From an uncultured bacterium (GTDB lineage Bacteria; Verrucomicrobiota; Kiritimatiellia; CAIKKV01): a stretch of DNA of 64,000 nucleotides. The notes beneath the pieces were generated by a model. That model ran no database searches. It was not told the DNA's origin and saw only the letters and a list, made by a program, of their open reading frames with translations. The DNA lies in contig CALHRZ010000012.1 of the NCBI GenBank assembly GCA_938038445.1, forward strand, positions 124,001 through 188,000. Direction: 5' to 3'. Shown piece after piece: positions 8,138-41,816 of this stretch. Both the position numbers and the translations under genes were made by a program. Within the stretch, counting starts at the first letter, position 1. Each line of letters begins with the position of its first letter.

Positions 8138-9604
8138 TTAGGGATACGGGATGACGATCTTGAAGAACTTCTTCGCTGCTCCCTGAGGATCAATCTCTAC
8201 GTTTTTGATCCCAGCGGATTTGGCTTCCTGCGCCACGTTCGAGTATACACCGTCCACCACATCCGCCGCATGAATTTGATAATCCACCTGAGCCCCGTCA
8301 TCCGAGCCCTCAAAGGTCAAGATAACATTTCCATTCGTGTCAATTGCTACCGCATCAATCTTCAGATACGACTCGTCATCATTCGGATCGGTGCCCGCAA
8401 TCGCTTCGTCAAGATTGGAGAACCCATCCCCATCCGCGTCATCCGCATAAGCATCCTCAAATGTTTCATAATCGCCTCCTGGCCCGATCGTAAACGATCC
8501 GGTGATCCATTCAGCAGGCGTATCCGGAACAACCGCAAACAACGCTGTTACATTCGTGCCATATTGCGCGGCTTGTTCATAAGATACCGACCATGTTTGC
8601 GCAGTGACTGTTTGAGTTGTATTGGTGTAAATCTGGGTGCTTCCAACAAGCAACCCACTTACATACACATCCACTCCCGGTGTCGTTTCGAGAAGGAAAT
8701 TCTGAGGCGATCCGGAAACAATTACTACAGCGCCACTTGGAGTGATGCTTCCATAGGCAAGATTCTGAGAAGCTGCAACCACTTCCAATTGCGCCGGGCC
8801 ACCCCCATATGGGTCCTCATCCGTTATTACCACGTCATCCAACGTCCCAATCCCCATTCCGACAAGGGCATTCATTCCAAAGATATTATCAGGCTGTGAT
8901 GAGCTCTTCATTTTGAACCAAGGACCATCTTCGGTATAGTTATTGACACCGACCCGAGTGTATCCATTCGCATGCGACAAATTCGTTGCGTTCACCCATA
9001 CCTTAAACATCGAATCGCCATCGTTATGTGCCCCTAAGACGGTATAATCTTGAAGAATCGTGACCCGGACCCATGAGTTCGAATCATAGGTGACATCCGT
9101 CCATTTGGATGTAACCCAATTCCCACCTTCCCCATGTAACAGGTTGAAGTAGCCGTTTGTGTCGAAGAAAAAGGCTAAACGGGAATTTGGGTCAACGGAA
9201 GCCAAGAGGCTCGTATCTTCCAACTGCCCGGGGAGCAGAACAAAATCAACAAAAAACGCTTGATCTTCAATGTTGCTGTCTTGCGCGTTGATATGGTTCG
9301 TTACGCTCCCATCAAAATACACCGCTTTCGTGCTTCCACCCGTTTCGCTCGGCATTCCAAAGCCAGGATTCCCAACGGTCGAGTTTGTAATGTAGGCAAC
9401 ACCATTATTGGTATCAGCCGACCAGCTTCCATAGCCTGGAGCAACAGGGTGCCCTGAATCACCCGCTCCCAACAAAGAGGTTCCTAACGCAATCTCTTCA
9501 AATGTCCATACCCCAAATCCAGCATTCGTAACCTGACTTTGGGCACTGATGGCAACTCCCATTGCCGCAGCCGCTACCATTATCCATGCTTTTTTCATCT
9601 TCAT
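8138..9604 (-). CDS. Secreted protein with LamG-like N-terminal region, bacterial repeat and DxDxDG-type Ca-binding segment
   Basis: Signal peptide MKMKKAWIMVAAAAMGVAISAQSQ; DADGDGFSNLDEAIAGTDPNDDESYLKI; C-term ...KKFFKIVIPYP; SD GGGAGGG before ATG at 9604. Confidence 0.8.
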   Translation of the reverse strand: MKMKKAWIMVAAAAMGVAISAQSQVTNAGFGVWTFEEIALGTSLLGAGDSGHPVAPGYGSWSADTNNGVAYITNSTVGNPGFGMPSETGGSTKAVYFDGSVTNHINAQDSNIEDQAFFVDFVLLPGQLEDTSLLASVDPNSRLAFFFDTNGYFNLLHGEGGNWVTSKWTDVTYDSNSWVRVTILQDYTVLGAHNDGDSMFKVWVNATNLSHANGYTRVGVNNYTEDGPWFKMKSSSQPDNIFGMNALVGMGIGTLDDVVITDEDPYGGGPAQLEVVAASQNLAYGSITPSGAVVIVSGSPQNFLLETTPGVDVYVSGLLVGSTQIYTNTTQTVTAQTWSVSYEQAAQYGTNVTALFAVVPDTPAEWITGSFTIGPGGDYETFEDAYADDADGDGFSNLDEAIAGTDPNDDESYLKIDAVAIDTNGNVILTFEGSDDGAQVDYQIHAADVVDGVYSNVAQEAKSAGIKNVEIDPQGAAKKFFKIVIPYP

Positions 9605-9669
9605 CTCTTTACCCTCCCAAGCGTCCATAATGGTCGTTCTTTTCAAAATATTCCCCAGTTCCACTATTG

Positions 9670-9698
9670 AAGATATCATGCCGGAACAGCTCTGTCAA
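9670..9698 (-). promoter_or_regulatory. Candidate sigma70-type promoter TTGACA-N17-TATCTT
   Basis: Minus-strand TTGACA (9693-9698), 17-nt spacer, TATCTT (9670-9675), upstream of the 8138-9604 gene. Confidence 0.6.
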
Positions 9699-33545: not shown

Positions 33546-36500
33546 TTATCGGATAAGCAGCAGGGTCCCCCGTCTCATAACATCCACAAACCGGACCGTT
33601 CCAGGATCGCCGCTCTGCCAACCAATCCCGCCCGGGACACGCGCGATTCCTTCGAAACGGGCAAAGGGCGTGAGCTGGACCCACTCGGCCGCAGCCGGGG
33701 GGAATTGACCCGTTAGAAAACTCTCTTGAACTTCGATCGGAACATTGCGCCATAGGGCGATCCGTCCCCCTCCTCCACCCCCACCGTGGGTCGTTCCCGC
33801 ATCGCCTCCGGCCGCAGAGAGAAGCCCACTTGCCGCAACCCGAATATCACGGGCGACGAGAAGAATTCCGCCACCAGCCCCCCCGCCCATGTTGCCACCA
33901 TGACGGGCGCCATCGGCATTGAAATGGCCGTCCACTTGAATCAAACCTGTCGCTTCAATCCAAATAACCCCCCCTCCATTCCCACCGGTGTTCCCACCGC
34001 CGCTCCCCGGCCAATAGGGGGCCAGTATGATTCCATTGGTCGGACCTCCTGCTCCGCCGGCGCTGTGATTTCCCCCCTTTCCTCCATACCCACCGCCGCT
34101 TCCCCGTCCCGAGCCGCCAATCACCCCTTTCCCCGGTCCGGCGTTGATCTGAAATCCCCGGCCCACCGCAAAAAATCCGCCGCCTGGATGAATCCTCGCG
34201 GAATTTACCTTGAATTTTGGCGAACCCCCATTCGTTTGATGAGAATAAGGAATAATCCATCCGTTCGTTTCCACAACAAGATCCCCTTGGACCTCAACAA
34301 TCGCACCCGCCGCCCCATAAGGGGTATTGGTCTGGGCAGAATAGACCTCCAAACGCCCGCCGGGGAGCACCCGCAAATCACCGCCGATATCGAGCTGCGG
34401 AGCTAGGCTTCCATTGATAGCGCCAACCCCAAGCAAACTGTTGGTCAAAATCGTCAAATCATTTTGCACCACGAGGCGGAAACCGTCTTCCGCCAAAAGA
34501 AAGGAATTATTGCTGACCACCAAGGCAGAAACCGTCCAGGTGGTAAAACCCTGGGCAAAAAGATGAAGGTCGCGAAACTGGTCGGCGCCCAGGACCGTTG
34601 AAAGAAGGCCGGTATTGGAAAGCCACAGCGTTCCATCACGAGCCACAAACTGCCACGTATTGGAAACAACTCCCTCAAACATGCCGTTGCCCCGTCGAGC
34701 CTGAAAACGGGGAGAAACCAAATTGTCATAACTCTGGACATGGAGGGCGATCCGCCCACCGCCTCCGCCTCCACCAAGAGTGCCGGAACCATCGCCGCCG
34801 TTGACCATGAAGAGTGGCGAAATGCCCGACAAGGTCTCACATTTCAACAAAATCGCGCCGCCGGCTCCGCCGCCCATATTGCCCCCCAGAAGGCCATTGG
34901 CGTTGAGAATACCTGAAATGTCCGCGTGAACAGCGTGGAGGGCGATCACGCCCCCGCCGAACGCGTAGAGCGATCCCCCTCCGCTTCCCGGCAGCATGGG
35001 CTGACTTAATGATCCGTTGGTTGGACCTCCCAAAACATACGTGTCTGTCCATCCCCCCCATCCCCCATGACCGCCGCCGGACCCACGGCTCCCTCCACTG
35101 ACCCCCGCGCCCGATCCAGATAAGCCCGCATACCCACAGCCTTGGGCGTAAAAGGATCCCCCCGCGCTGATCGTCAAATTGGTGGCGAAAAAACAGACCG
35201 ATCCGCCGTTCGTCCAATGAGAATAAGGGACAACACGGGAGTTCGCCGCAATATGCATTTCATTGCTGATCCGAACCTCCGCGCCGAAACCATCCAATAA
35301 CTCCGACGCGAGCCCGCTGAACACCGAAAACAGGCCGGCATTGGTGATCACCAGCCGATCCCCGACCACCAACCGGAAAGGCGAATCTCCCATGATCTCG
35401 CCAATCCCCGCTTGAGCATTTGTGCCGATTCGCCAATCCCCCCAAACGGTCATCTGTAAACCCGGCGTGGCAAACAAAAGACGGTTATGCTCGATCGTCA
35501 GCGATTCCACAGCCCAATTGGTTACATCGCGAAAATAGAGGGCCACTCGATCAAACCGATTCGAGGGAGGAACAGAGGTCACATAATCGCCGTTGGGAAG
35601 GGAAAGCGTGCCCCACCCGCTTGCGCGAAACCATCCCCGGTTTGCAGGATCACCGTCCCCCCAACCGACGCCCGGAGCCGTGGAAAAACGGATCGCGCAG
35701 TTCCCATCCAAATCCTGGTAGTCCACCGCGATCCGTCCTCCCCCGCCACCACCGGCATTCGCGCCGCCGTTCCCACCGTTCGCCGACAACAACCCATTGG
35801 TGGTCCCCGCCAAAATCCCACACCGAAGAAAGATCGCCCCGCCGGAGCCGCCTCCTCCATAACTGTTCGACGCATTCGCGCCGCGTACCGTCACCACGCC
35901 TCGCACGTCCGCCGTTCCCGACGCTTCAATCCATATCACGCCGCCGCCGGCTCCGCCTGAACTCCCGTCAGCGCCTCCGCTCCCCGGAGTCATCGGTTGG
36001 TGGACCGAACCATTCGTTCCCCCGCCGGGCCCTTGATCGCCCCAGCCTCCCTTTCCCCCATGCCCACCCCCTCCCCAGCGACCCGTGACCGACCCAGCGC
36101 CAGGACCTTGGGCCCTCAGATACCCTTTCCCATCTGCGCCCACACGGCCCCCGGAAATAAGCATAAAATTGGTGCAGACAATCCACACCCGATTGCTCAT
36201 GTCATTGGTCCAAAAAGGACCGGCAACCGTCACGATCGCATTAGACTGGATGGTGACATTGTCGGCGATAAGCCGCGTCGTCCAGTTGGTGAAAATAAGC
36301 GTTCCCCCGCTGATCACAAAAGAAGCGAGCAGCGGAGTCTCGCTTGATAGCAGGACCTCCGACGCCGGGCCGATGGACACATCGTCACCCGCCGAAGGCA
36401 ATACATTAGCGCCCCCCGCGTTGGTCCAATTGATGGCGTTTTCCCAAGTTCCTGTCCCACCTCGCCAAAATAAGGCATCAGCCCGAACCGTCAATGTCAC

Positions 36501-36557
36501 CCCCAGCCACAACCCAAGCCCCCCCCCAACGCTTAAGCAGGATGGTCGCTTCATCAC
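33546..36557 (-). CDS. Large secreted Gly-rich repeat protein with three tandem modules and C-terminal RGTLLLIR tail
   Basis: N-terminal hydrophobic segment then WRGGTGTWENAINWTN; three repeats of GGGxGGxGG...TNGS/I...PGSGG...GGGVIWIEA...GGGAGGxILL...GGGGGGRIAL. Confidence 0.85.
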   Translation of the reverse strand: MMKRPSCLSVGGGLGLWLGVTLTVRADALFWRGGTGTWENAINWTNAGGANVLPSAGDDVSIGPASEVLLSSETPLLASFVISGGTLIFTNWTTRLIADNVTIQSNAIVTVAGPFWTNDMSNRVWIVCTNFMLISGGRVGADGKGYLRAQGPGAGSVTGRWGGGGHGGKGGWGDQGPGGGTNGSVHQPMTPGSGGADGSSGGAGGGVIWIEASGTADVRGVVTVRGANASNSYGGGGSGGAIFLRCGILAGTTNGLLSANGGNGGANAGGGGGGRIAVDYQDLDGNCAIRFSTAPGVGWGDGDPANRGWFRASGWGTLSLPNGDYVTSVPPSNRFDRVALYFRDVTNWAVESLTIEHNRLLFATPGLQMTVWGDWRIGTNAQAGIGEIMGDSPFRLVVGDRLVITNAGLFSVFSGLASELLDGFGAEVRISNEMHIAANSRVVPYSHWTNGGSVCFFATNLTISAGGSFYAQGCGYAGLSGSGAGVSGGSRGSGGGHGGWGGWTDTYVLGGPTNGSLSQPMLPGSGGGSLYAFGGGVIALHAVHADISGILNANGLLGGNMGGGAGGAILLKCETLSGISPLFMVNGGDGSGTLGGGGGGGRIALHVQSYDNLVSPRFQARRGNGMFEGVVSNTWQFVARDGTLWLSNTGLLSTVLGADQFRDLHLFAQGFTTWTVSALVVSNNSFLLAEDGFRLVVQNDLTILTNSLLGVGAINGSLAPQLDIGGDLRVLPGGRLEVYSAQTNTPYGAAGAIVEVQGDLVVETNGWIIPYSHQTNGGSPKFKVNSARIHPGGGFFAVGRGFQINAGPGKGVIGGSGRGSGGGYGGKGGNHSAGGAGGPTNGIILAPYWPGSGGGNTGGNGGGVIWIEATGLIQVDGHFNADGARHGGNMGGGAGGGILLVARDIRVAASGLLSAAGGDAGTTHGGGGGGGRIALWRNVPIEVQESFLTGQFPPAAAEWVQLTPFARFEGIARVPGGIGWQSGDPGTVRFVDVMRRGTLLLIR

Positions 36558-36721: not shown

Positions 36722-39700
36722 TTATCGCAGCACAATCACGTCCACCGGCAAGGGCACCGTGCAGGCAATCTCCACGGTATTCCCGTTTCGCCTCCACCTC
36801 AAGGGACCGGCCAATGCGCCGAACACTTCCGAAACTTTCCTGTCGGTCTCAACGCGCAAAACGGCCTCCGCCCCATGCCGCTCACTGAAATCGCTCAAGC
36901 ACACCGCCAGTCCCGCAGCATGCTCCACCAAAATCGCCTCCGTCAATGGTTCCGAAAACCAAACCCGACCCCTTCCCGCACCCGCCGCCGCCGGCTTCTC
37001 GATCAACGCACGCCGTGCCGCTTGATAGCCCGTCGGTTTCCGATTCGAGTCGAGCGGTGCGTTTTGCCGATAGAGATGTCCCAACATCACCCCAAACAGA
37101 ATCGCCCGACCCCGCCCTAGCTCGCGCAGCACAACGCCCGCGCCCCCATCGCGGAATCGGCCCAGCACCGCCACCCCTTCAAGAGGATCCAACACCACCT
37201 TCGGCCCCACCACAGGAACAGTAAGAGACGGCGTCCAAGGAGTATCCTCGAGCCGTAGTTCATCGATCGGCTCATGCCCCGAGATTTCCGCAGGAGCGAA
37301 ACTCCCTTGCGAAAGTCCCGTAATCCGCTGCCGCGCCCCAAATAAATGCGCCGCCTCTTCCAACGGATCATCAAACTCATCATAAAGTCCTGTCCCCGCT
37401 TCCGCGATCAAAACGCCGCCATTCTCAACCCAATCGCCCAACGCCCGCAGACCCGCTCGTCTCATGTTAAGCCCTTGGACAAATACAACCCGATACGGCG
37501 CCAACCCTTCCGCAGTCAGGTCCTCTTCGATGATCACATCCGCCGGCAGATGGGAATGCATCAGCGCAAGATAAAGCAGCAAACGGTTGAAATGCGCCCC
37601 CGCCCAGGATCCCCTCCAGAATTCCTGCGTTTGATTGTATAAGACCGCAATGCGAGCCGGCTCCCGCCGACCCTCGGCCAGGATCCGATCGGCCGGACTG
37701 ATCGCCCGGGCAACCCGCCCGATCTGGGGATAAACCGCCGGAATGTGGCTCCAAGTGTCCACCGCCCCCCGGGTGTATTCGGGCCCCCAATCGTAAAAGT
37801 AAAGCAGCGTATGGCCCCGCGCCGCGAGCATCATGGCCTTGCGGTCTACCGATCCCGTCCGCCCCACAATGAAAAACCCCTTCGGCAACCCCCGCTTCCG
37901 TGCCGCGCATTCGACAAGGGCACCATAATAACCGACCGTCTGCACGCCGGCCATTCCTTCCCCACCCAGCCAGTCCTCCCCCCACGCCAACCCAACGCCC
38001 TCGCCCCGCGCCAGCGCAAACCAGTCGGATCCAAACATTTTTCCCGCATGCATGAAGGACCCCGGCGTGTAATTGCACCAGGTAACCGCATTCGGAAAAA
38101 CCCTCCGGATCGCACGACTGTAGCGGGCATAATAGTGGTCGCTCAGTGCCCAATGAAAGAGCCGGCTGAAATAGAACGCGCGCCGCTGAAGACGGCCGGC
38201 ATCCGGCGGCAGCTCATCTAAACAGGGGACCTCACTCCAGTCGGATACCCCAAACAGTTCGAGCCCAACCCCCCGTTCGGCCGCCCGTTCGCGAAGAAAC
38301 GCTTCAAACGCCGCCCGCACATCGGATAGACCATTCACAAACGGCGCGGAGGAAACCGGCCCAATTTCATCGCCCATCTTGACATACTCAACCCGTTCGG
38401 GAACCGGCAGGGGCACCTCTTCCGCCTCCTCGGCACCCGCCTCCAATACCCTTCCGCTGGAGGCGGCCCGTCGTGCCAACGACTGCCTCAGAGCCGTTTC
38501 AACTGTCCGCTCAAAAGTAGGATCAAGCGGATCATGGGTCCCCGACGCATGACCAGGCGACTGGTAATAAGCAAATCCGCCCGGATGCAGCCCATACCGT
38601 TCGGCCCATTCTCCCGCCACCGGCACCAGCCAGTTGAAACCCAGCCGACGCAGTTGGGGAATCAACTCGTCCCAGACCGCCGGCGATGCGCCACACCCCG
38701 TCATGAACTTGATCCGAGAAGGCAGAACCGCTGCCTCGTCAAACCCCGCCTCCCGAATCGCCTCATAAACCGGTGCCAGCATTTCCGATTCATTGCGAAA
38801 GAACCGAACATAATCCGCCGCCCGAACCCCCCAAACCGCCGACACCGCATTCGAGCCCGACTCGACGCGATACGTCCGATGATCGGTCGGCAGGGAATAA
38901 ACCGTCCGCCCACCCCAAACAGGACACCGAATCGCGCGAAGAATCGCATGAGCGTCGGGCCGCCACGCCCATTCGACTTCAACCGTTCCGCCTACCACTC
39001 GCCGCCCGGATACGGCATCCGTCACGGTCAGCAGATCGGTACAGTAGGGGCCTGTGCTGGTCATCGCCTCCGTGGCATCCGTCCAACCCGACCACGTCCC
39101 GACGGGAATCTCCATCTTCCCCTCCTCACTCCGAATCTCCCCGACCGCCCCATAATGCAGCCGCCGAGGAAAATCCGGGCGGTAGTGATACCACTGATAA
39201 CGGATGAAACTCTTGAAACGTACGAACTTCGTTCTTTCATCTCCCCCCACATACCGGTAACGCAGGTAATGACGGGTCAGAGTATTGGCCTCCCGCTCGA
39301 TGTGGCGAGAGGGCCGAAACGTGCGGCTCCGGGTGAGGAACAACGCTTCAACAAGGGGTTTCGAGCCTTCCATAACCTCCACCGCAAACCGGGTCGCCCC
39401 CGCTTTCATGGGAATTTCTTTAAATTCCCATACGACGGAAGGACCCGTGAACGGCAGTTCGCGTTCGGCTTCAGTCTCGAACCGAACCGGCTGTTGTTCC
39501 TCGATCCTGCTGCCGGGAATGGATTCCCACTCGAGGTTCCCAAATTCGAACGTTCCCTCATTGACGCCTGAAAGCACCACGCGAAAAGGGTGGCGGGAAC
39601 CGCGCAACGCCGCATACGAAATCCAAACGCGCCAGGTGTCCTCCTCCGGTACAGCCACCCAGGAAAAAATGGGCGGGGGCTCCGGAACGGCGGGAACCGC

Positions 39701-40018
39701 GCCAAGCCGTTGAGGATACGCCTGCCCCTGCATGATGTTGCCGTATTCGTTCTGCCCGGCCATCGGGGCGGTCCTCCACCCATATGTGCGGCCGCTCTCC
39801 CTGCGCCGCGGATCGGCCGGTTCCACGCCTTCCCATTGGCTCATCAACGTCAGGTGGCTCGACCGAAGACGGTCATAGTCGGTCGTTCCCTTCTTCAGGT
39901 CCCGGGCCAGGTCCGCGAGCAGAGCATCGTCCTTGCCGCCGAGCAGTTCATCAAAAGCGTTCACCTGGCCGGCAAACAGAACGCATAACAGAAACCATTC
40001 AAGGAAGCGGAAGCGCAT
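36722..40018 (-). CDS. Large secreted hypothetical protein, GH42-trimerization/glutamine-amidotransferase-like C-terminal region
   Basis: Signal peptide MRFRFLEWFLLCVLFAGQVNA; VVFVQGLNMRRAGLRALGDWVENGGVLIAEAGTGLYDEFDDP; catalytic assignment not certain. Confidence 0.65.
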   Translation of the reverse strand: MRFRFLEWFLLCVLFAGQVNAFDELLGGKDDALLADLARDLKKGTTDYDRLRSSHLTLMSQWEGVEPADPRRRESGRTYGWRTAPMAGQNEYGNIMQGQAYPQRLGAVPAVPEPPPIFSWVAVPEEDTWRVWISYAALRGSRHPFRVVLSGVNEGTFEFGNLEWESIPGSRIEEQQPVRFETEAERELPFTGPSVVWEFKEIPMKAGATRFAVEVMEGSKPLVEALFLTRSRTFRPSRHIEREANTLTRHYLRYRYVGGDERTKFVRFKSFIRYQWYHYRPDFPRRLHYGAVGEIRSEEGKMEIPVGTWSGWTDATEAMTSTGPYCTDLLTVTDAVSGRRVVGGTVEVEWAWRPDAHAILRAIRCPVWGGRTVYSLPTDHRTYRVESGSNAVSAVWGVRAADYVRFFRNESEMLAPVYEAIREAGFDEAAVLPSRIKFMTGCGASPAVWDELIPQLRRLGFNWLVPVAGEWAERYGLHPGGFAYYQSPGHASGTHDPLDPTFERTVETALRQSLARRAASSGRVLEAGAEEAEEVPLPVPERVEYVKMGDEIGPVSSAPFVNGLSDVRAAFEAFLRERAAERGVGLELFGVSDWSEVPCLDELPPDAGRLQRRAFYFSRLFHWALSDHYYARYSRAIRRVFPNAVTWCNYTPGSFMHAGKMFGSDWFALARGEGVGLAWGEDWLGGEGMAGVQTVGYYGALVECAARKRGLPKGFFIVGRTGSVDRKAMMLAARGHTLLYFYDWGPEYTRGAVDTWSHIPAVYPQIGRVARAISPADRILAEGRREPARIAVLYNQTQEFWRGSWAGAHFNRLLLYLALMHSHLPADVIIEEDLTAEGLAPYRVVFVQGLNMRRAGLRALGDWVENGGVLIAEAGTGLYDEFDDPLEEAAHLFGARQRITGLSQGSFAPAEISGHEPIDELRLEDTPWTPSLTVPVVGPKVVLDPLEGVAVLGRFRDGGAGVVLRELGRGRAILFGVMLGHLYRQNAPLDSNRKPTGYQAARRALIEKPAAAGAGRGRVWFSEPLTEAILVEHAAGLAVCLSDFSERHGAEAVLRVETDRKVSEVFGALAGPLRWRRNGNTVEIACTVPLPVDVIVLR

Positions 40019-41816
40019 AGACAAACCCTTCGTCATCCGCCGTCAACACCAGCGTCCCCCGTTCCACCGTCAGAGGATCGCCCGTCTGCCACTCGGCCGG
40101 CGCCTCACGGGCGATCAAAAGACCATCGCGAAGCAAGGCGCCGAAGTGCATCTCCCGCAAAGGAGCCGTCTCGGGCAGTCGGAGTAAAACAAGCCGCCCC
40201 CGGCGTCCGGTCCAAACCGCAAGGGAGTCGGATACCACAGCAAATCCCGCGGCGGGTTCGCCGGCCCGCCATTCTGCAGTCCATGAACCCGTCGCGACCT
40301 CCAGCCGACCTACCCAACCCGAGCGGTCAGCCGCAAGCAAGGATCCCCCCACGCCGTATAGTCCTCCCGCCAGCAGGGTGTCCGGCGCCTGGACCCGCCA
40401 ACGCCGCTCTCCCTCGCGCGCACCGAAAGCCATCAGCACCCCTTCCCGCGAGGTCCCGATCAGCAAATCCCCATCAAGAAACAAAGGACCGATCCACCGT
40501 GCGGACTCCAACGCGCGCCAAACCTCGTGCCCATCGCTTTCTCGCCAGCAGACCATTTCGCCGGCTTCATTCCCCGCCCACACCCACCCATCGCGGACCG
40601 TCGGCCCTGCCGTCCATTCCCCCGCCCCCCGCGCGCTCCAAACGGTTTCGTTTCTCTTTCCGCCAATGGCCTTGAGCGTCTCGCCCTCGGCCACAAACAC
40701 CTGATCCTCCCTCCCCCTCGCTACGCTCCATGGCCACAACCCCGATGCGGCGGAACCCCGGCTCCCAACCCCCGTTTCGATATGAATGCGCTCATAGCTC
40801 GGCTGATATTGGAAAAGGAGAGCGCCGCCATCCGCTTCCACGCGAAACCCATACCGCGGTCTGTACCGTTCCGGCTTCGGCCGTTCCCAACGACGAACTC
40901 CTTCCACTACGCTCCAGCATTCAAGTGCACCGTTTTGGTCCAAATAAATTCGGTCCTCTCGCCACCCGAGCAAATCGCCCCCCGCCGGATTGAGCGCCAT
41001 AAATAAAATGCGTTCATCCCCCCACTGAATGGCAGCACGTAACATCCGTTCCAGGTACCCGAATAGAGATTCACGATGCGCCCGCGCCGCCACCCTCCGG
41101 ACGGCTCCCCGCCCGTCGCGCATCTCGAGCGCTAACCGATACCCCTCCGGCAGCCGAGCCCCCCGTAGGGTCAAGTCCTGTTCGGCTTGACCCCGAACCG
41201 GCTGGAATCCTTGTCGCAGGGCCGCCGCAACAAAAAGCGCCCGCATTCCTTCCCGCTCAGCAGGCGTCAAGGACATCCCTTCGAGGTTCTCCGCCTCCCC
41301 CATCCGAAGGGAAACCGGGCAACCAACGGTTCCGGAAAGGAGGCGATTCGACCACGCACGCCCAAAATCAGCCGCCAGTTCGATCCCCGCATTTCGGTCA
41401 ATCTGCCGATCGCCCGGTGGAATGTTTTCCGGATAGATACCCTGGGTATCATACTGCCGGGCCGGCCGACGGACTGCTACCGCAGGATCACCCGCTGCAT
41501 TAAAACCAAAGGCCAGCCAATCCGTCCGCGCGCCAAAATGGACCGCCACCAGCGCAATCTTTTCTTGCGGTTTTCCTTCCGGCAGCGGATCGTCCCACAA
41601 AGCCCGAGGAAGGGATTTTTCTTCTCGCGCCGCAAAGCCGGAACGGCCATCAAGTCGACTGATAAAGGCCGCTGCGCCCGCCCGCAGATCGCGCTGGGCA
41701 ACCTCTGCCCCCACGGAGAAAAGAGATACGCGAAATGCGGCAGGTTCCTCGGCACCTTGCACCCCGAGAAAGCCGAAAAAAGGCGCCAGAAGAACAAAAC
41801 GTCTCAATCGGTTCAT
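39999..41816 (-). CDS. Secreted PQQ-binding-like beta-propeller repeat protein
   Basis: Signal peptide; repeats such as DGWVWAGNEAGEMVCWRESDGHEVWRA and LDGDLLIGTSREGVLMAFGAREGERRWRV. Confidence 0.8.
   Translation of the reverse strand: MNRLRRFVLLAPFFGFLGVQGAEEPAAFRVSLFSVGAEVAQRDLRAGAAAFISRLDGRSGFAAREEKSLPRALWDDPLPEGKPQEKIALVAVHFGARTDWLAFGFNAAGDPAVAVRRPARQYDTQGIYPENIPPGDRQIDRNAGIELAADFGRAWSNRLLSGTVGCPVSLRMGEAENLEGMSLTPAEREGMRALFVAAALRQGFQPVRGQAEQDLTLRGARLPEGYRLALEMRDGRGAVRRVAARAHRESLFGYLERMLRAAIQWGDERILFMALNPAGGDLLGWREDRIYLDQNGALECWSVVEGVRRWERPKPERYRPRYGFRVEADGGALLFQYQPSYERIHIETGVGSRGSAASGLWPWSVARGREDQVFVAEGETLKAIGGKRNETVWSARGAGEWTAGPTVRDGWVWAGNEAGEMVCWRESDGHEVWRALESARWIGPLFLDGDLLIGTSREGVLMAFGAREGERRWRVQAPDTLLAGGLYGVGGSLLAADRSGWVGRLEVATGSWTAEWRAGEPAAGFAVVSDSLAVWTGRRGRLVLLRLPETAPLREMHFGALLRDGLLIAREAPAEWQTGDPLTVERGTLVLTADDEGFVYALPLP

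Follow-up and report, generated by a model that had tools for sequence, protein, structure and literature searches.

About 30 otherwise unrelated, mostly exported proteins of the source bacterium, an uncultured member of the PVC class Kiritimatiellia, share one C-terminal end: Gly-Thr, four hydrophobic residues, Arg, and the stop codon. We consider it fairly probable that these seven residues serve as a minimal C-terminal signal for export or surface sorting, with a receptor in the outer membrane or the periplasm. A more specific reading, to which we give slightly less than an even chance, is that this class has an undescribed system for outer-membrane secretion or surface attachment that recognizes its substrates by the tail, with a trans-acting receptor that reads an Arg-ended seven-residue β-strand. 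The distribution of the tail shows it to be an alternative to PEP-CTERM.

Three tail genes lie in the window, that is, the whole stretch of 64,000 nucleotides analyzed (Table 1), and a signal peptide was seen by eye in each. The frame of the third (1405 aa), which begins with its signal peptide, extends beyond the end of the window. The gene for the Gly-rich protein has a GTG start; an ATG one codon later gives the N-terminus MKRPSCLSVGGGLGLWLGVTLTVRADA, a plausible signal peptide, and the C-terminal end is DPGTVRFVDVMRRGTLLLIR* (asterisk, stop). A G8 domain was detected at residues 51–107 (Pfam, E = 4.8e-7), and three GGGGGGRI blocks mark the three Gly-rich modules. The preliminary description had recognized these modules and had the protein end in RRGTLLLIR, and both are correct; its span for the tail (33546–33572) was shifted by one codon, as the peptide occupies 33549–33575 and the stop codon 33546–33548. 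At the C-terminus the predicted strand GTVRFVD is followed by the linker VMRR and then by the tail. The body is probably a β-solenoid; a Foldseek search of the Gly-rich module against the PDB gave no significant match. Directly upstream (36722–40036, minus strand) lies a gene for an exported 1104-aa protein ending in ...VPLPVDVIVLR*, which resembles the tail but has no GT and is possibly a degenerate tail or a coincidence.

Table 1. Tail genes and C-terminal elements in the window.
Feature	Position	Strand	Basis or remark
Exported, Gly-rich, strand-rich protein of 1003 aa; three modules, N-terminal G8 domain, signal peptide	33546..36557	-	ORF, Pfam, AF2
Tail RRGTLLLIR and stop	33546..33575	-	Core GTLLLIR* at 33546-33569; kept in Gly-rich homologues
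GTVRFVD (residues 986-992), last predicted folded β-strand of the body	33582..33602	-	AF2 strand 214-220; homologous PGT[IV]xF columns
Tail GTLILIR and stop, on an exported F5/8 type C (discoidin-like) protein of 349 aa (22766-23815)	22766..22789	-	
Tail GTLMIIR and stop, on a choice-of-anchor Q / DUF1565 / PKD protein	60709..60732	-	

In the 3.07-Mb source genome, GGNACNYTNNTNNTNATHMGNTRR (GTLxxIR-stop) with at most one mismatch gave 30 matches compared to none in the reversed control. All 30 were the ends of open reading frames, 29 of them plausible; the other, a 68-aa frame ending in GTLFFTR, is likely a chance match. A relaxed tail pattern gave 29 matches and again none in the control. Among 108,651 positions in the open reading frames of the window and of the stretches around the matches, 34 matches were C-terminal and two internal; since these stretches were sampled for their tails, the comparison speaks to placement at the end and not to abundance. 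We then considered the composition of 35 tails chosen by the pattern G[TSA]Φ...[RK]. Thr occupied position -6 in 32 of them, positions -4 and -2 were hydrophobic in all 35, and the last residue was always Arg and never Lys (35:0), although the pattern permits Lys. A short linker of variable sequence precedes the tail, and P, A, S, R, and K are frequent in it at positions -8 to -11. Codons differ freely among the copies of the tail, which indicates selection on the peptide rather than on the DNA.

The bodies that carry the tail are of extracellular type. They include F5/8 type C, laminin-G-like, right-handed β-helix, DUF1565/choice-of-anchor Q, PKD, and G8/Gly-rich proteins as well as proteins with the passenger repeats PATR and Chlam_PMP, while many have no Pfam match; no β-barrel of their own was detected in them. 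By a crude score, signal peptides were present in 24 of 32 tail ORFs as compared to 47 of 138 other ORFs (Fisher p = 4e-5), and inspection by eye shows an obvious signal peptide in several of the eight tail ORFs that this score missed. None was visible in the tail ORFs of loci L113, L124 (the 234-aa ORF), and L130, which are perhaps frameshifted or cut by the contig end. Short tail ORFs with no evident signal peptide were seen at L113 (360 aa), L124 (234 aa), L126 (95 aa), L129 (153 aa), and L137 (219 aa); these are possibly frameshifted or degraded tail genes.

To follow the tail through one protein family, we aligned the Gly-rich protein of the window with 11 relatives that are approximately 40% identical. 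The full 1003-aa sequence found no relatives when used as the query against genome contigs; the relatives, from metagenome bins with labels such as Lentisphaerae and PVC group, were obtained with an alignment of the module as the query. Over the 12 proteins, the tail columns had a mean identity of 0.40 and a mean BLOSUM score of +2.26, compared to 0.08 and -0.59 for the adjoining linker columns. The relatives end in GTVIILR, GTMVLVR, GTLIRLQ, GTVFLMQ, QTMMLIR, GTLFLLR, GTLIRIR, GTLFTVR, and GTIFSLH, with the more divergent TFVIIVR and GLVFVVR. The tail was absent from the closed ends of two Gly-rich homologues, one from a Doudnabacteria bin and one labelled Verrucomicrobiota, and several otherwise-labelled homologues run off their contigs so that the end is not visible.

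These results agree with the proposal, made in the preliminary description, that the tail is a modular, appended element: it occurs on at least six unrelated types of body, follows a short variable linker, and is conserved at the peptide level. The suggested comparison of tail with linker gave the scores above, and of the close, collinear but tailless homologues that would speak against the proposal we saw none, as the tail or a close variant of it was present on the Gly-rich homologues from PVC metagenome bins whose 3' ends are intact. The motif GTLxxIR describes the tail locally; the form in the relatives is broader, G-T-[LVIM]-hydrophobic-x-hydrophobic-[R/Q/H/K/N].

The tail is scattered across the class. 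Four or more relaxed matches were found in 19 of 146 genomes of the class, with a maximum of 29, and a second, phylum-wide sample added further members with 56, 23, and 20 matches. In each of 192 genomes from elsewhere in the phylum the count was three or fewer, which is the level of the reversed control. Exosortase (PF09721) is present in 133 of the 146 class genomes irrespective of the tail. In contrast, none of the 80 class genomes with at least five PEP-CTERM proteins reached four tails (maximum 3; mean 0.26 compared to 0.33 in the control), and each of the 19 tail-rich genomes had four or fewer PEP-CTERM proteins. This mutual exclusion has a Fisher p of 5e-8 over the 146 genomes when kinship is ignored.

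What follows the choice-of-anchor Q domain also differs between these genomes. In the PEP-CTERM-rich genomes the downstream end is mostly a different domain end, FYRVxVxxP*, while genomes of families f3 and f27 have variant tails such as GTVYSIR, GSVYKVR, ALMLIVR, and GMILIVN. Genomes scored with neither tag may therefore hold variants, which makes the strict count a minimum. Variant tails after this domain were seen in G002 (L094/L259), G032 (L247, L248, L282–L284), G027 (L254, L255, L278, L280), and G130 (L265); across the four genomes they comprise GTLLIIE, SLLFIVQ, GGMLLIVK, GMILIVN, GTVYSIR, GSVYKVR, GLTIIAR, GAVIQVR, ALMLIVR, and GFLLIVR. In the window itself, the product of 8140–9694 (minus strand), with a weak TSP3-repeat match, ends in ...FFKIVIPYP*. 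As this resembles FYRVxVxxP*, the source bacterium may have another kind of C-terminal end in use besides the tail.

How might such a tail act? We propose that tail proteins would first be exported via Sec, and that a periplasmic or outer-membrane receptor would then bind the tail, most likely by β-strand addition, with contacts to the fixed G-T with which the tail begins, to its hydrophobic run, and to the C-terminal Arg. Whatever the passenger, the receptor could thus bring it to a translocon in the outer membrane or to a site of surface attachment. The seven residues are β-prone and end in a free Arg. On this proposal the tail, too short to span a membrane, would be the counterpart of PEP-CTERM/exosortase in the sister families and of the type-B CTD in Bacteroidota. 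We found no receptor, protease, or translocon. A shuttle gene beside the tail genes was considered and rejected, as the recurring neighbors are LacI/GntR/AraC regulators, metabolic genes, and other ordinary genes.

PEP-CTERM (TIGR02595, with exosortase PF09721) is similar in that a short C-terminal tag is found on many unrelated Sec-exported proteins of one genome, and it dominates the sister families in which the tail is rare. However, the 35 tails have no PEP motif, no membrane-spanning helix, and no arginine or basic cluster; the tail is seven residues long compared to approximately 24, and its Arg is the very last residue. In these features the tail proteins do not match PEP-CTERM substrates; a cognate exosortase is present in the genome. 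It could be speculated that the tail is nevertheless a processing signal, and that, in the manner of exosortase or PorU, a protease or transpeptidase cleaves at Gly-Thr or close to it and couples the body to a glycan or lipid on the surface. The near-invariant G-T at a fixed position, the hydrophobic run after it, and the terminal Arg do recall, on a smaller scale, the motif-hydrophobic-basic order seen in known sorting tails, and the source genome has an exosortase; however, we regard this as unlikely, as that exosortase is the only one, an EpsI-like fusion in a polysaccharide (EPS) locus, and the single TIGR02595 match of the genome is a protein with a classical PEP-CTERM. Moreover, four hydrophobic residues are too few for a membrane span, which makes an intramembrane enzyme such as exosortase an unlikely reader. 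The fused gene lies at L200 7211–9454 within an exopolysaccharide cluster, and the one PEP-CTERM protein is encoded elsewhere on the contig.

The closest likeness in sequence is to the type-B CTD of the T9SS (TIGR04131/PF13585, CHU_C), whose last strand, near the stop, reads G-[ST]-hydrophobic-x-hydrophobic-hydrophobic-R. Examples encoded on Bacteroidota plasmids end in KGSVTILR*, KGWIEVVR*, and RGTISIIRDHH*, or, less similarly, in GSITILY* and GFVHVVK*. The tail may be convergent with this last strand or a relic of it, and the likeness suggests that several sorting signals of the outer membrane may be built around one C-terminal β-strand. Simple membership in the T9SS was rejected because neither PF13585 nor PorP/SprF (PF11751) was found in the source genome. 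One could instead suppose that a type-B CTD has been reduced to its last strand, the tail, and that export proceeds by a diverged T9SS. The pattern shared at or near the stop is consistent with this; however, we find it more doubtful than a processing signal, as the type-B CTD is a domain of 80–100 aa and only its final strand is present here. Across the 146 class genomes, PF13585 matched in two, both tail-poor, and PorP/SprF was confined to one other genus, in which four genomes had it and tail counts do not rise above background. The SprA models (TIGR04189, PF14349) matched in none, a weak negative since control genomes were also silent, and the absence of a T9SS is thus likely but not proven. 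In Flavobacterium johnsoniae all five motifs of a type-B CTD are required for secretion (PMC12618676), so a single strand should not work there.

A last alternative, about as improbable as a diverged T9SS, is that the tail is a structural cap, a final β-strand that closes or stabilizes a β-rich body and has no sorting role: the sequence is β-prone and a similar strand, PGT[IV]xF, precedes the tail in the Gly-rich proteins, but these seven residues, always equally far from the stop, are found on folds that need different caps (discoidin, LamG, β-helix), and neither restriction to the class nor exclusion of PEP-CTERM would be expected. AF2 modeling of the last 230 residues of the Gly-rich protein (last module and tail), with the 12-sequence alignment as input, also argues against a cap. 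The model (mean pLDDT 73, pTM 0.78) folds the module into strands and leaves the tail, residues 224–230, outside the fold with no secondary structure (pLDDT 67 in the last block). We therefore take the tail to be probably exposed, with moderate confidence. In the Gly-rich proteins considered by themselves, the tail could have arisen as a duplicated strand with no sorting role, as the last strand of the module begins with GTV. A single-sequence AF2 model of the discoidin protein had a pLDDT of 33 and was set aside.

Two further systems invite comparison with the sorting signal that we favor. The β-signal of the BAM complex also uses a C-terminal β-strand as an address. It typically has an aromatic last residue and belongs to a barrel, whereas the tail ends in Arg and is found on bodies of soluble type (β-helix, lectin, discoidin). 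A β-barrel-type protein in the window, with a weak Alginate_exp match, has the classical outer-membrane protein C-terminus ELSYWF*, which argues that the tail is not an ordinary β-signal. Autotransporters are similar in that some tail bodies have passenger repeats (PATR, PF12951; Chlam_PMP, PF02415); however, no autotransporter barrel was among the listed Pfam matches of these proteins, which have the tail at the C-terminus instead.

In the open-access literature that we searched, which excludes most subscription journals, we found no description of the tail or of a C-terminal sorting system in the source group, which has few cultured members. If the tail is an address tag, it would be among the shortest sorting signals known and would mark the surface proteome, approximately 30 to 56 proteins in the richest genomes. 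It would also provide a handle on the machinery through phylogenetic profiling, the approach by which PEP-CTERM led to exosortase. The richest genome seen, G327 (a class member of family f33), has 56 relaxed matches compared to two in the control and is a good starting genome for such a search. In another genome, G142:C5:95000-114900 (L139) encodes three similar tail proteins in tandem, with open frames of 664–685 aa, apparently a recent gene expansion.
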